Source of the DNA: an uncultured Lutibacter sp.
GTDB lineage: Bacteria > Bacteroidota > Bacteroidia > Flavobacteriales > Flavobacteriaceae
Assembly: GCF_947495725.1 (NCBI RefSeq)
Contig: NZ_CANLZZ010000001.1
Span: forward strand, 496,001 to 560,000
Reading direction: 5' to 3'
Length of the DNA stretch: 64,000 bases
Positions within the stretch are counted from its first letter, which is position 1; every line of letters starts with the position of its first letter. Under the pieces are notes generated by a model, which was not told the origin of the DNA, did not search any database, and worked only from the letters and a program-made list of their open reading frames with translations. The position numbers and the translations under genes are program-made. This document shows, one piece after another, positions 57,071-60,592 of the stretch.

Positions 57071-58627
57071 CTATTCTAAATCAAATTTTATGCCTTGTGC
57101 TAAAGGTAAATTTGTTGTATAGTTGATTGTATTTGTTTGTCTACGCATATAAATTTTCCAAGCATCGGAACCTGACTCTCTGCCTCCACCAGTTTCTTTT
57201 TCACCACCAAAAGCACCACCAATTTCAGCTCCAGAAGTTCCTATATTTACATTTGCAATTCCACAATCGGAACCTGCATGAGATAAAAATTGTTCGGCTT
57301 CACGTAAATTATTTGTCATAATTGCCGAAGAAAGACCTTGATTAACACCATTTTGAATTTCAATCGCATTTTCAACACTTCCAGAATACTTTAATAAATA
57401 CAAAATAGGAGCAAAAGTTTCGTGCTGCACAATTTCATAATAGTTCTCAGCTTCAACAATTGCGGGCATCACATAACAACCACTTTCATAACCTTTACCA
57501 CTTAAAACGCCTCCCGAAACAATTTGGTTTCCTCCTTCTTTAACTGCTTTTTGCAATGCATTCTCATACATTTTTACAGCATCTTTATCAATTAATGGGC
57601 CTACGTGATTATTTTCATCTAAAGGATTTCCTATTCTTAATTGTTTATAAGCCTTAACTAATGCCTCTTTAACCTTATTGTACATAGATTCGTGAATAAT
57701 TAATCTCCGAGTGGATGTACATCTTTGACCCGCTGTACCAACTGCGCCAAAAACAGCTCCAATAATTGTCATTTTTAAATCTGCATCTGGTGTAACTATA
57801 ATTGCGTTGTTTCCGCCTAATTCTAATAAAGATTTCCCCAAACGCTCGCCAACGGTTTTTCCAACAATTTTACCCATTCTAGTTGATCCAGTTGCAGAGA
57901 TTAATGGAATTCTTTTATCAGTGGTCATAAATTCACCCACTTTATAATCACCATTAATTATATTTGAAATTCCTTCAGGTAAGTCATTTTCTTTTAAAAC
58001 TTGCGTAATAATATTTTGACAAGCAATACTGCATAGCGGCGCCTTTTCTGAAGCTTTCCAAATACAAACATCACCACAAACCCAAGCTAAAGCAGTGTTC
58101 CAAGCCCAAACAGCAACTGGAAAATTAAATGCTGAAATAATTCCAACTATTCCAAGAGGATGGTATTGTTCATACATTCTATGTCCTGGTCTTTCAGAAT
58201 GCATTGTTAACCCGTGTAATTGACGTGATAATCCTACTGCAAAATCACAGATATCAATCATTTCCTGAACTTCTCCCAAACCTTCTTGAAGTGATTTTCC
58301 CATTTCATATGAAACCAACTCACCTAAAGGTTGTTTTAATTCTCTTAATTTATCTCCAAACTGTCTAACTATTTCTCCTCTTTGAGGAGCAGGCTTTAAT
58401 CTCCAACTTTTAAACGCTATTTGAGCAGCATCTAACACTTTTTCATAATCATCTTTAGTAGTGCTAGAAACAGCACCTATTAACTCTCCATCAACCGGTG
58501 AAAATGATTTAATTATTTCTCCATTCCCAAATGCTATGGAACCTGTTGAAGTTCCAAAATTTATAGGTTTTACTCCTAATTGATTCAATGCCTTCTGAAT
58601 AGTACTTTTTATATTTAAGGATTTCAT
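57071..58627 (-). CDS. ALDH7-type aldehyde dehydrogenase (aminoadipate semialdehyde type)
   Basis: A 518-residue NAD-dependent aldehyde dehydrogenase closely following the ALDH7A1/antiquitin group, which oxidises alpha-aminoadipic semialdehyde in lysine degradation. Landmarks: SFNFPVAVWAWNTALAWVCGDVCIWKASEKAPL, ISATGSTRMGKIVG, LLELGGNNAIIV (catalytic-region Glu), GTAGQRCTSTRRLII (catalytic Cys) and FGGEKETGGGRESGSDAWK. Length and motif order are normal. Monocistronic with a -7 box; convergent with DUF3078 (10 bases). Confidence 0.93.
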   Translation of the reverse strand: MKSLNIKSTIQKALNQLGVKPINFGTSTGSIAFGNGEIIKSFSPVDGELIGAVSSTTKDDYEKVLDAAQIAFKSWRLKPAPQRGEIVRQFGDKLRELKQPLGELVSYEMGKSLQEGLGEVQEMIDICDFAVGLSRQLHGLTMHSERPGHRMYEQYHPLGIVGIISAFNFPVAVWAWNTALAWVCGDVCIWKASEKAPLCSIACQNIITQVLKENDLPEGISNIINGDYKVGEFMTTDKRIPLISATGSTRMGKIVGKTVGERLGKSLLELGGNNAIIVTPDADLKMTIIGAVFGAVGTAGQRCTSTRRLIIHESMYNKVKEALVKAYKQLRIGNPLDENNHVGPLIDKDAVKMYENALQKAVKEGGNQIVSGGVLSGKGYESGCYVMPAIVEAENYYEIVQHETFAPILYLLKYSGSVENAIEIQNGVNQGLSSAIMTNNLREAEQFLSHAGSDCGIANVNIGTSGAEIGGAFGGEKETGGGRESGSDAWKIYMRRQTNTINYTTNLPLAQGIKFDLE

Positions 58628-58756: not shown

Positions 58757-59971
58757 CTAAAACTTATAATTTAACCCTGTATATACACCTAAATAGTAAG
58801 GTTGTAAGCTACCAGAATTTTTTGAAAAGGTATTTGTTTGCATTTTAAACATTGGTGAAATGTTAATAAATAGATTTTTACGTATAGAATAATCTACATC
58901 AACTCCAATATTTCCACTAAAATTTATAGATCTTAAATTGTTAGATGATCCTAAACTTTGAGTAAATGAGTTTGTTTCTACAAAAACTTCATCTTTATTT
59001 AATAAAAGTGTACTAAAACCTCCAACTAAATTAACTCCAAGTTTACCATTGGTAACATTATATTTTAATTCCACTGGAATCTCTACATAGCCAAATGCCT
59101 GATTAACACTACCTCTATTTGGGTCAATTGCATTAATATCGCTTTGCTTTAAAGTAGTTAAACTTTGTGCTTTTGTTCTAATAGGATCAGTTGATAAATT
59201 TGAAAATCCCAATACTGAAACACCTGGGGTTACATATATATCATTTGTTTTATAACCTAAATTAATAAGATTTACACCTGATTGTACACTAAATTTATCA
59301 TTAAGTTTATAGGCTAGTTTTATTCCATAAGAATAGGATGAACTTCCTGAAGCTCTATTATCTTTAAATTGCTCATCAATCCCCGATCCATCGCCAAGCG
59401 AATTAATGTATATAGGCGCATATATGGTTGCTACTGTAATTCTTCCGGCACTAACTTCTTTATTTACACTTTTCCTTGCTTTTTTATCTGAAGCCGGTAA
59501 ACTTAAAGCATCTACTAAAATAGAATTGTTTTGATTATTTTTATTTGCTGAAGTCTCTTCAATCTCATTATTCTCTTTATTCTCAACATCAGAAAAGGTT
59601 AATTTAGCATTTTTTACAGATGTTTTAAACTCATTTGATTGTTGTTGAAGATTTATAACTTTCCTTTTATATGGATCTTCTTCAATAGTTACAATAGAAT
59701 CTTTATCTAAAAGAGATTTTGAAGTATTCTTTTGTTTAATAAGATTTTTTGATAATTTATTTTTTGGAATAAAATAGATGGTGCCAATACTAAAAAACAA
59801 AATAAACAAAGCAGCAATACTTGCAAATTTCACCCAAATTGGTATTCGTTTTTTTCTAGAAACTGGTTTTAAATTCTTGTCAATTGCATTCCAACATTTA
59901 TTAGGAGGAAGAATGTCTAAGTCTTTTAAATTTTCTTGAAATATTCTATCAATATTTTTGTAATCTCTCAC
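58757..59971 (-). CDS. Putative dual-membrane-spanning anti-sigma factor with OMP-like barrel
   Basis: A 404-residue protein. A short cytoplasmic N-terminus (about 1-42, with DILPPNKCWNAIDKNL, like the sigma-binding segments of Bacteroidota anti-sigma factors) is followed by one inner-membrane helix (about 43-67). A low-complexity linker (about 70-175, Asn/Lys/Ser/Glu-rich) would cross the periplasm. A C-terminal region (about 178-404) of alternating amphipathic strands ends in YYLGVYTGLNYKF, the terminal Phe usual for outer-membrane barrels. Start is GTG at 59971, 14 bases after the ECF sigma gene. The layout resembles the dual-membrane-spanning anti-sigma (Dma) proteins of Bacteroides thetaiotaomicron. 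Confidence 0.75.
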   Translation of the reverse strand: MRDYKNIDRIFQENLKDLDILPPNKCWNAIDKNLKPVSRKKRIPIWVKFASIAALFILFFSIGTIYFIPKNKLSKNLIKQKNTSKSLLDKDSIVTIEEDPYKRKVINLQQQSNEFKTSVKNAKLTFSDVENKENNEIEETSANKNNQNNSILVDALSLPASDKKARKSVNKEVSAGRITVATIYAPIYINSLGDGSGIDEQFKDNRASGSSSYSYGIKLAYKLNDKFSVQSGVNLINLGYKTNDIYVTPGVSVLGFSNLSTDPIRTKAQSLTTLKQSDINAIDPNRGSVNQAFGYVEIPVELKYNVTNGKLGVNLVGGFSTLLLNKDEVFVETNSFTQSLGSSNNLRSINFSGNIGVDVDYSIRKNLFINISPMFKMQTNTFSKNSGSLQPYYLGVYTGLNYKF

Positions 59972-59985
59972 TTTAACCTTTTATC

Positions 59986-60522
59986 TTATACAGACTGTTG
60001 ACTCTCTTGATACACCTCAATTTTTTGTTTTAAAATGCCTCTTGCTCTGGCCAAATTTGATTTTGATGTGCCTTCTGCAATTTTTAACATTTTTCCAATC
60101 TCTTTATGAGAATGACCATCTAATACATAGAGGTTAAAAACCATTCTGTACCTATCTGGTAACTCTCTAATAAGATTTAACAAAAACTCCAAAGAAATTT
60201 CATCATCGTCGATGTCAACAACTACCTCTTCAGGAATCTCTTCAGTAACAATATTTAACACAGATTTTTTTCTATATTTTAGTAAAATCGTGTTCACCAT
60301 AACGCGCTTCATCCAACCTTCAAATGAACCCTCAAACTTAAACTGTCCAATTTTATCGAAAATGGTTATAAAACCATCTTGAAAATTATCTTGAGCCTCT
60401 TGTTTATTTTTAGAGTATTTTAGACATATAGAGAATAATTTACCAGCAAAAAGCTGATAAATTTCTTTTTGTGCCTTTCGGTCATTTTTTGCACATTTTT
60501 TTATGAGCTTTTCTAAACCCAA
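59986..60522 (-). CDS. ECF-type RNA polymerase sigma factor
   Basis: A 178-residue group 4 sigma factor. Region 2 is QEAQDNFQDGFITIFDKIGQFKFEGSFEGWMKRVMVNTIL, and region 4 is LPDRYRMVFNLYVLDGHSHKEIGKMLKIAEGTSKSNLARARGIL. No region 3 or extra C-terminal sensor domain. The only usable start is a TTG at 60522, giving GLEKLIKKCAKNDRKAQ. It directly precedes the barrel-containing anti-sigma gene, which presumably sequesters it at the membrane. Promoter targets are unknown. Confidence 0.92.
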   Translation of the reverse strand: MGLEKLIKKCAKNDRKAQKEIYQLFAGKLFSICLKYSKNKQEAQDNFQDGFITIFDKIGQFKFEGSFEGWMKRVMVNTILLKYRKKSVLNIVTEEIPEEVVVDIDDDEISLEFLLNLIRELPDRYRMVFNLYVLDGHSHKEIGKMLKIAEGTSKSNLARARGILKQKIEVYQESQQSV

Positions 60523-60584
60523 ATATTAGTGTTTTAATTGTTAATAAGATACCTTAAAAGATAATAGGTTGCGTAAATTTACAT

Positions 60585-60592
60585 TACTTTTG
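60585..60592 (+). promoter_or_regulatory. -7 box (TACTTTTG) for the LuxE-like gene
   Basis: Perfect TAnnTTTG ending at 60592. It places transcription start near 60598 and so rules out GTG 60592 and makes ATG 60595 unlikely, favouring ATG 60610. Confidence 0.5.

Follow-up and report, generated by a model that had tools for sequence, protein, structure and literature searches.

A probable ECF sigma factor and dual-membrane anti-sigma factor pair of Lutibacter with a proposed outer-membrane-sensing mechanism and a predicted core regulon

Could a single protein chain report the state of the outer membrane directly to a sigma factor? The question is raised by a locus in a 64,000-nucleotide stretch of Lutibacter DNA (the window, meaning the whole stretch that was analyzed), where an ECF sigma factor gene is followed by a gene for a 404-aa protein. 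A first-pass annotation had described this protein as one chain made of a short N-terminal segment, one membrane helix, a linker and a barrel-like domain ending in Phe, a description with which AlphaFold2 agrees and, as to the barrel, Pfam as well. We consider it highly probable that the two genes encode a cognate pair of an ECF sigma factor and a dual-membrane-spanning (Dma/Reo-type) anti-sigma factor, for which an outer-membrane-sensing mechanism and a core regulon can be proposed.

The sigma factor gene (59986..60522, minus strand) encodes 178 aa from a TTG start codon, and the protein matches sigma regions 2 and 4 in Pfam (Sigma70_r2 and r4_2). The anti-sigma gene, identified from the ORF list, Pfam, the genus loci and the alignment (58757..59971, minus strand, full ORF including the stop codon), starts with GTG and lies 3' of the sigma gene in the window after 14 nt; the coordinates and lengths first assigned to the two ORFs held. 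The arrangement was compared across 30 Lutibacter loci, a set that includes the window's own copy. The sigma gene lies directly 5' of the anti-sigma gene in all 30, the order is constant and the intergenic gap is 9-17 nt. The TTG start proposed for the sigma gene is kept in 29 of these loci, with ATG in the remaining one, and the GTG proposed for the anti-sigma gene recurs in every one (30/30). Mis-called starts are ruled out by this genus-wide conservation.

Of 60 genomes searched, 37 gave a match to the anti-sigma factor: the source genome, 34 of its 36 congeners and 2 of the 23 remaining genomes from the order. Its closest counterparts in named isolates are from Lutibacter (Flavobacteriaceae) at 53-72% identity, and in metagenome assemblies titled Lutibacter identity goes down to 39%. 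Phylum-wide, a profile search for the anti-sigma factor gave matches at E 0.001 in at least 103 of 395 genomes, the counts being lower bounds with at most four candidates scored per genome. A sigma gene matching the profile lay directly 5' in all 20 regions fetched from other genomes, which had been chosen from matches to the anti-sigma profile. A dual-membrane anti-sigma sensor of this kind appears to be widespread in the phylum. Another assignment considered for the pair, that of a PUL-type SusR sigma (TIGR02985) with a FecR-type anti-sigma factor, was rejected: the sigma factor scored 73.9 bits against a cut-off of 126.4, and the FecR family was absent among the anti-sigma factor's Pfam matches at E values up to 1.

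The surroundings of the pair yielded further observations. An aldehyde dehydrogenase-like gene, judged by eye, lies 3' of the pair in the window (57071-58627, minus strand) and is probably outside the operon; this neighborhood is kept in L074, L075, L076 and L078. On the plus strand, the divergent gene has its ORF listed from GTG 60592, but ATG 60610, conserved in most genus loci, is the probable start. The sequence TACTTTTG at 60585-60592 (plus strand) overlaps that GTG and fits the TAnnTTTG -7 box given in the available text of PMC9723704. In one metagenome-assembled Lutibacter (L026, also L076; G023:C181), an in-frame stop follows anti-sigma residue 214, within the barrel, and reflects either natural loss or an assembly error.

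To place the sigma factor, a tree of 61 sigma rows is available. In it, 47 sigmas, including those of the window, of a second pair in the same genome and of 12 probable Bacteroidales loci, are separated from 14 other ECFs with support of 100/96, a split that is partly built in because the outgroup sigmas are mostly weaker matches of the same profile. Placement is uncertain for L130, L138 and L167, whose branches are long or open, and L077, which gave no sigma match, was left out. The 12 sigmas come from five class-level genomes that are probably Bacteroidales, three taken for their NigD_N matches and two from the same family in which the anti-sigma factor matched weakly. With the profile built on Lutibacter these sigmas score 109-183 bits, compared with 71 bits for the next ECF. 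For nine of the 12, the next gene encodes a protein of 351-439 aa whose hydrophobic helix begins near residues 45-63, and eight of these partners match PF13568 or PF13505 over the cut-off, while that of L158 stays below it (25.7 vs 28.7 bits). L160 is a 547-aa fusion of sigma and barrel with both parts over cut-off, in L163 the sigma carries a hydrophobic segment at its C-terminus and precedes an ORF of 269 aa, and L167 is followed by a 182-aa partner that is too short for such a barrel and adjoins a NigD gene. NigD_N gave four matches in 119 genomes of the class; three of the four lie within 0.6 kb of a group sigma, two at barrel pairs (L154, L155) and one at L167.

The source genome itself holds five group-like sigmas at 328, 240, 163, 143 and 104 bits (next 67), two of which have a barrel partner behind them. 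Since sigmas of the group also occur without small-barrel partners, the sigma alone is no proof of mechanism. Six of ten scanned partners behind group sigmas are fusions of the head with Plug or CarboxypepD and von Willebrand A domains; the ten were chosen for size or divergence, so that this make-up is no frequency, and L121 lies outside the Pfam-scanned set. In the loci concerned (L120 and L122-L126) the anti-sigma head is fused to a TonB-receptor Plug and/or a CarboxypepD-regulatory domain and a von Willebrand A domain, and the proteins end in a YfbK C-terminal domain or, in L120 and L122, in a sorting tail for type IX secretion. It is odd to find a cytoplasmic head combined with a secretion tail, and such a protein could represent a further sensor type.

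Which genes would such a sigma factor transcribe? A predicted autoregulatory ECF promoter, CGCAACC-N15-TATCT (60547..60573, minus strand), lies 24 nt ahead of the TTG of the sigma gene; the 64-kb window holds no other match to the pattern on either strand. The element CGCAACC-N15-YATCT occurs exactly 5' of the sigma gene in 29 of the 30 Lutibacter loci, the thirtieth differing by one base, and ends 24-26 nt before the start codon. In 14 loci of other genera (seven Christiangramia, three Polaribacter, one Tenacibaculum and three Aquimarina), CGCAACC-N13-17-YATCT was found 5' of the operon, on the operon strand, in 12 cases, compared with 0 of 14 in the backward control. In those 12 loci it lies 0.6 to 1.8 kb 5' of the anti-sigma gene, either before the sigma gene or before genes preceding it. 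The ECF motif with a CGT box in the available text of a Flavobacterium psychrophilum transcriptome paper is different from the CGCAACC element.

Four exact matches to the element are present in the source genome. Two have the N15 spacing, one being the pair's own promoter and the other preceding a gene for a 138-aa protein at G000:C7:60062-60478 (also given as 59999-60478; L212:1500-1979). The other two are at C6:13452 (N13) and at C7:107329 (N14), the latter inside an ORF on the other strand. An independent protein search found the 138-aa gene in 37 of 38 genus genomes. The element lies 27-50 nt 5' of this gene of about 138 aa, exactly in 28 of 30 genus loci and one base off in the other two. 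Across the 38 genus genomes the pattern gave 141 matches against 86 in the backward control, so that an individual match carries little weight. The surplus of 55 roughly equals what two conserved site families would contribute, one at the promoter of the pair and one at the 138-aa gene. The core regulon predicted from these sequences would thus consist of the sigma/anti-sigma pair and the 138-aa helical protein. Among 21 homologues from a family-wide search, the element precedes two, both from Lutibacter, and is absent from the 19 of other genera, which limits the regulon link to the genus level.

The 138-aa protein is predicted to be helical (pLDDT 83.5) and matched no family over cut-off. 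In structural comparison with the PDB it had no significant match, the best Foldseek hit having E 1.3 and the best Z being 4.9, which is not proof of a new fold. A PDB sequence search with the family returned three weak matches (best E 0.0054). Relatives in other Flavobacteriaceae keep an FxHEAHLRLAW-like motif; judged by eye, the Lutibacter form keeps the first His of this motif and mostly goes without the second. Three of 20 fetched element sites precede SusC-type receptor genes and not the 138-aa gene. They belong to three Lutibacter genomes (L220, L223 and L226), where the element lies 84-116 nt 5' of SusC/RagA-like TonB receptor genes, and these genes may be extra targets or chance occurrences.

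The promoter element might instead belong to another ECF of the group, which would leave the 138-aa gene outside the control of the pair. We regard this as unlikely, although related ECFs can share promoters and the genome contains the five group-like sigmas described above. A relaxed form of the element, CAACC-N14-17-YATC[CT], indeed occurs 45-48 nt before 5 of 18 sigmas of other pairs, mostly of the Plug-vWA type (control 0/18). However, the N15 form is confined in the genome to the pair and the 138-aa gene, both genus-conserved sites, and when the initial 1600 bases of the loci of the three other group-like sigmas were scanned for the relaxed form, a single site appeared, about 1.1 kb before a sigma gene and inside another ORF. 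The CGCAACC element was not seen in the examined stretches of the second pair. None of the 12 Bacteroidales-type sigmas has the relaxed element within 150 nt 5', and one of them, L157, has a looser match.

Turning to the anti-sigma factor, an alignment of 20 proteins shows that the head (residues 1-34), the membrane helix and the C-terminal domain are conserved while the middle is hypervariable. With this alignment as input, AlphaFold2 predicted helices at residues 7-15, 24-34 and 45-66, with a mean pLDDT of 60.0 for the model and of 51-61 for the blocks of the head. Residues 1-34 (59870..59971, minus strand), which contain the first two of these helices, form a putative sigma-binding segment, as suggested by the model, the sequence identity and the residues M1, I7, D8, F11, L15, P22, W27 and I30, which are invariant in the 20 alignment rows. 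The head segment also matches the N-termini of further partner proteins encoded behind group sigmas. Residues 45-66 (59774..59839, minus strand), modeled as a helix, hydrophobic and conserved, are predicted to be the single membrane helix; Lys/Arg residues were seen by eye on both of its flanks, so that charge does not settle the topology. No peptidoglycan-binding domain was found in the anti-sigma factor with Pfam, and a PDB sequence search with it gave no matches at E values up to 1.

The linker that had been put at roughly 100 residues comprises 111 by the borders 67-177 (59441..59773, minus strand). It is predicted to be a disordered tether, with pLDDT values of 26-38 in blocks between residues 81 and 170 and below 50 throughout residues 79-173. 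Across 28 other genus members (L026, with its stop inside the anti-sigma gene, and L003, the window's own copy, were excluded), identity to the window averages 67% in the head, 72% in the membrane helix and 77% in the barrel. In the tether it averages 24%, yet the tether length is kept at 105-115 aa. This length ranges from 107 to 177 aa in 17 additional sequences, which apart from one divergent Lutibacter belong to other genera of the order, and from 115 to 274 aa in 14 sequences from other orders, other classes or the genome's second pair, where the values are rough since the barrels align at about 20% identity. An extended chain covers about 0.35 nm per residue, and 105 residues would accordingly reach about 35 nm, enough for the periplasm. 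Judged by sequence, the tether has the length that a bridge would need, which is no proof of one.

The same region is the basis of a second alternative, in which the barrel is inserted and the tether is routinely cleaved, so that barrel and anti-sigma factor end up as separate proteins of the outer and the inner membrane, and signals would pass by regulated proteolysis and not through a continuous bridge. Proteolytic release of anti-sigma factors is a common route in other bacteria, and a tether that is disordered and poorly conserved would be accessible to proteases. However, none of the 59 relatives measured has a tether shorter than 105 aa, and a cut chain needs no such constraint on a segment that retains its length in the genus at so low an identity. 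We therefore judge a routinely cut chain to be improbable and retain the dual-membrane-spanning anti-sigma factor as the preferred reading.

For the C-terminal domain (residues 178-404, ending in Phe; 58760..59440, minus strand), an eight-strand barrel was one option named in the first-pass annotation, and it is the outcome of the AlphaFold2 prediction, which gave no soluble domain in its place. Eight main strands lie between residues 178 and 403, with two short extra strands at 207-209 and 337-341. From residue 171 on, 16 of 24 blocks have pLDDT values of 71-87 and eight of 44-67, including part of the last strands. Pfam matches residues 210-372 to PF13568 (OMP_b-brl_2) with 39.3 bits against a cut-off of 27. 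A Foldseek search with the model returned 172 PDB matches at E values up to 0.001 with outer-membrane barrels on top, and VIA-align of residues 172-404 gave OprF (4rlc) with Z 17.7 and an rmsd of 2.0 over 131 aligned residues, NspA with Z 17.3, OmpA with Z 16.0-17.4 for the better entries, and OmpW (2f1t) with Z 16.6 and an rmsd of 2.7 over 171 aligned residues. A soluble periplasmic barrel of the lipocalin/YceI type on an ordinary inner-membrane anti-sigma factor is very improbable. It has in its favor that some soluble barrels appear lower in the structural list, such as a photosystem II subunit (Z 10.1) and YceI (Z 8.8); against it, the top 24 rows are outer-membrane or designed transmembrane barrels (Z 12.2-17.9), PF13568 is an outer-membrane barrel family, and 45 of 60 anti-sigma sequences carry a C-terminal Phe, the residue in which the beta-signals of outer-membrane proteins end.

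For membrane location, sigma binding, signal and release we infer the following course. The barrel would be inserted in the outer membrane via BAM and the tether would cross the periplasm, so that the N-terminus could keep the sigma factor inactive at the inner membrane. If the barrel were misinserted or the outer membrane disturbed, the anti-sigma factor would be inactivated, by conformational change, pulling or proteolysis, and the sigma factor would be released. The freed sigma factor would then transcribe its own operon, amounting to positive autoregulation, as well as the gene of the 138-aa helical, probably cytosolic protein. With its sharp promoter signature and predicted two-unit regulon, the locus offers a small, testable version of such a system, in which one reporter could read how the state of the outer membrane is passed on to transcription.

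More tentatively, and with slightly less than even confidence, we suggest that Dma/Reo systems are a single branch of a modular sensor that is old and extends across the phylum. This would comprise one sigma group, a shared anti-sigma head and, outside Bacteroidales, a shared promoter type, while the envelope sensor is exchanged between an eight-strand barrel, a TonB-plug with von Willebrand A domain and a sigma-barrel fusion. The Lutibacter barrel version would then lead to a minimal two-unit regulon, the other output of which is a helical, probably cytosolic protein matching no family searched. Two features, the constrained tether length and the swapping of sensor domains on a common head, provide handles on how the bridge would sense and transmit the state of the outer membrane.

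How does the pair compare with known systems? According to the available text of PMC13088901, Dma proteins consist of an anti-sigma domain, a membrane helix, a disordered tether and a barrel, adjoin ECF21 sigmas, occur only in Bacteroidota and are involved in control of outer-membrane vesicles (OMV) and in colonization fitness. As far as they are described there, Dma1/Das1, Dma2/Das2 and Dma3 of Bacteroides thetaiotaomicron resemble the Lutibacter pair in the order of parts and in the adjacent ECF sigma; the Dma3 arrangement is matched by the 547-aa sigma-barrel fusion in a relative (L160). The likeness to Dma systems noted at first pass is supported by the eight-strand barrel of outer-membrane type, the length-constrained disordered tether, the sigma gene directly 5' and a sigma group in common with barrel pairs of other orders. 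By this grouping the sigma factor appears to belong with those of barrel pairs in probable Bacteroidales, some of which adjoin NigD genes. With OmpA, OprF and OmpW the barrel has the eight-strand fold in common, which implies no shared function; unlike in these proteins, it is the C-terminus of an anti-sigma chain.

The EcfO-Reo class is described, in the available text of PMC9308784, as inducible by an envelope-targeting toxin and as lengthening the O-antigen, and the strong induction of the EcfO gene by the toxin is consistent with the autoregulatory promoter predicted for the Lutibacter pair. In Phocaeicola vulgatus and Bacteroides fragilis the regulon includes three NigD lipoproteins, and Reo is described as spanning the inner membrane and the periplasm up to an outer-membrane barrel (PMC9308784 and PMC13114119, available text). 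The NigD component of this regulon of lipoproteins and longer O-antigen was not found in the Lutibacter genome studied: unlike in the Dma systems, the genome of this member of the Flavobacteriaceae gave no match to NigD_N (PF12667), and the predicted regulon holds the pair and the 138-aa protein. A NigD regulon is no defining feature of the dual-membrane anti-sigma class.

A lipoprotein family of 132-154 aa (A3), without a Pfam domain name of its own, adjoins the pair 5' or 3' in Polaribacter, Tenacibaculum and Christiangramia (L037:2509-2922, L075:4291-4689, L078:4349-4753, L083:1978-2415 and others) and is a possible functional counterpart of NigD. It was rejected as NigD itself, as no NigD family appeared among the Pfam matches of 11 members; one of two members scanned with NCBIfam touches NigD1/2 at E 0.019, below the cut-off. 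It was also rejected as part of the Lutibacter locus, having no match in the source genome at E 0.01, a weak criterion applied without a positive control.

The second pair of the genome (L033:1502-3410) likewise consists of a group sigma followed by a 449-aa protein with a membrane helix, a tether and a barrel over the PF13568 cut-off. It differs in lying between a lipoprotein that is weakly NigD-like (NF051862, E 0.0012, 18.6 bits, cut-off 60) and a von Willebrand A lipoprotein. In this region (L033:465-4762; G000:C5:213464-217761) the NigD1/2-like gene is 5' and the von Willebrand A gene 3', and by eye the latter resembles the domain fused to the head in L120 and L122.

The first-pass annotation knew of no described example with a flavobacterial barrel and linker. 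No flavobacterial Dma/Reo-type example was found in the literature either, the founding PNAS 2024 paper lying outside that comparison; in the available text of a flavobacterial TamL paper the PNAS 2024 work is only cited. The sigma factor linked to oxidative stress in Riemerella anatipestifer (PMC6557517, available text) could be related to that of Lutibacter. The class itself has already been published as confined to Bacteroidota and found across them (PMC13088901, available text), so that the flavobacterial case extends rather than founds it. Dma/Reo systems in the literature examined are from gut Bacteroidales, and Lutibacter is a free-living marine relative with the same architecture. New in the present analysis are the grouping of its sigma factor with those of probable Bacteroidales barrel pairs and a Dma3-like sigma-barrel fusion, the constraint on tether length, the promoter element and the prediction of a regulon.
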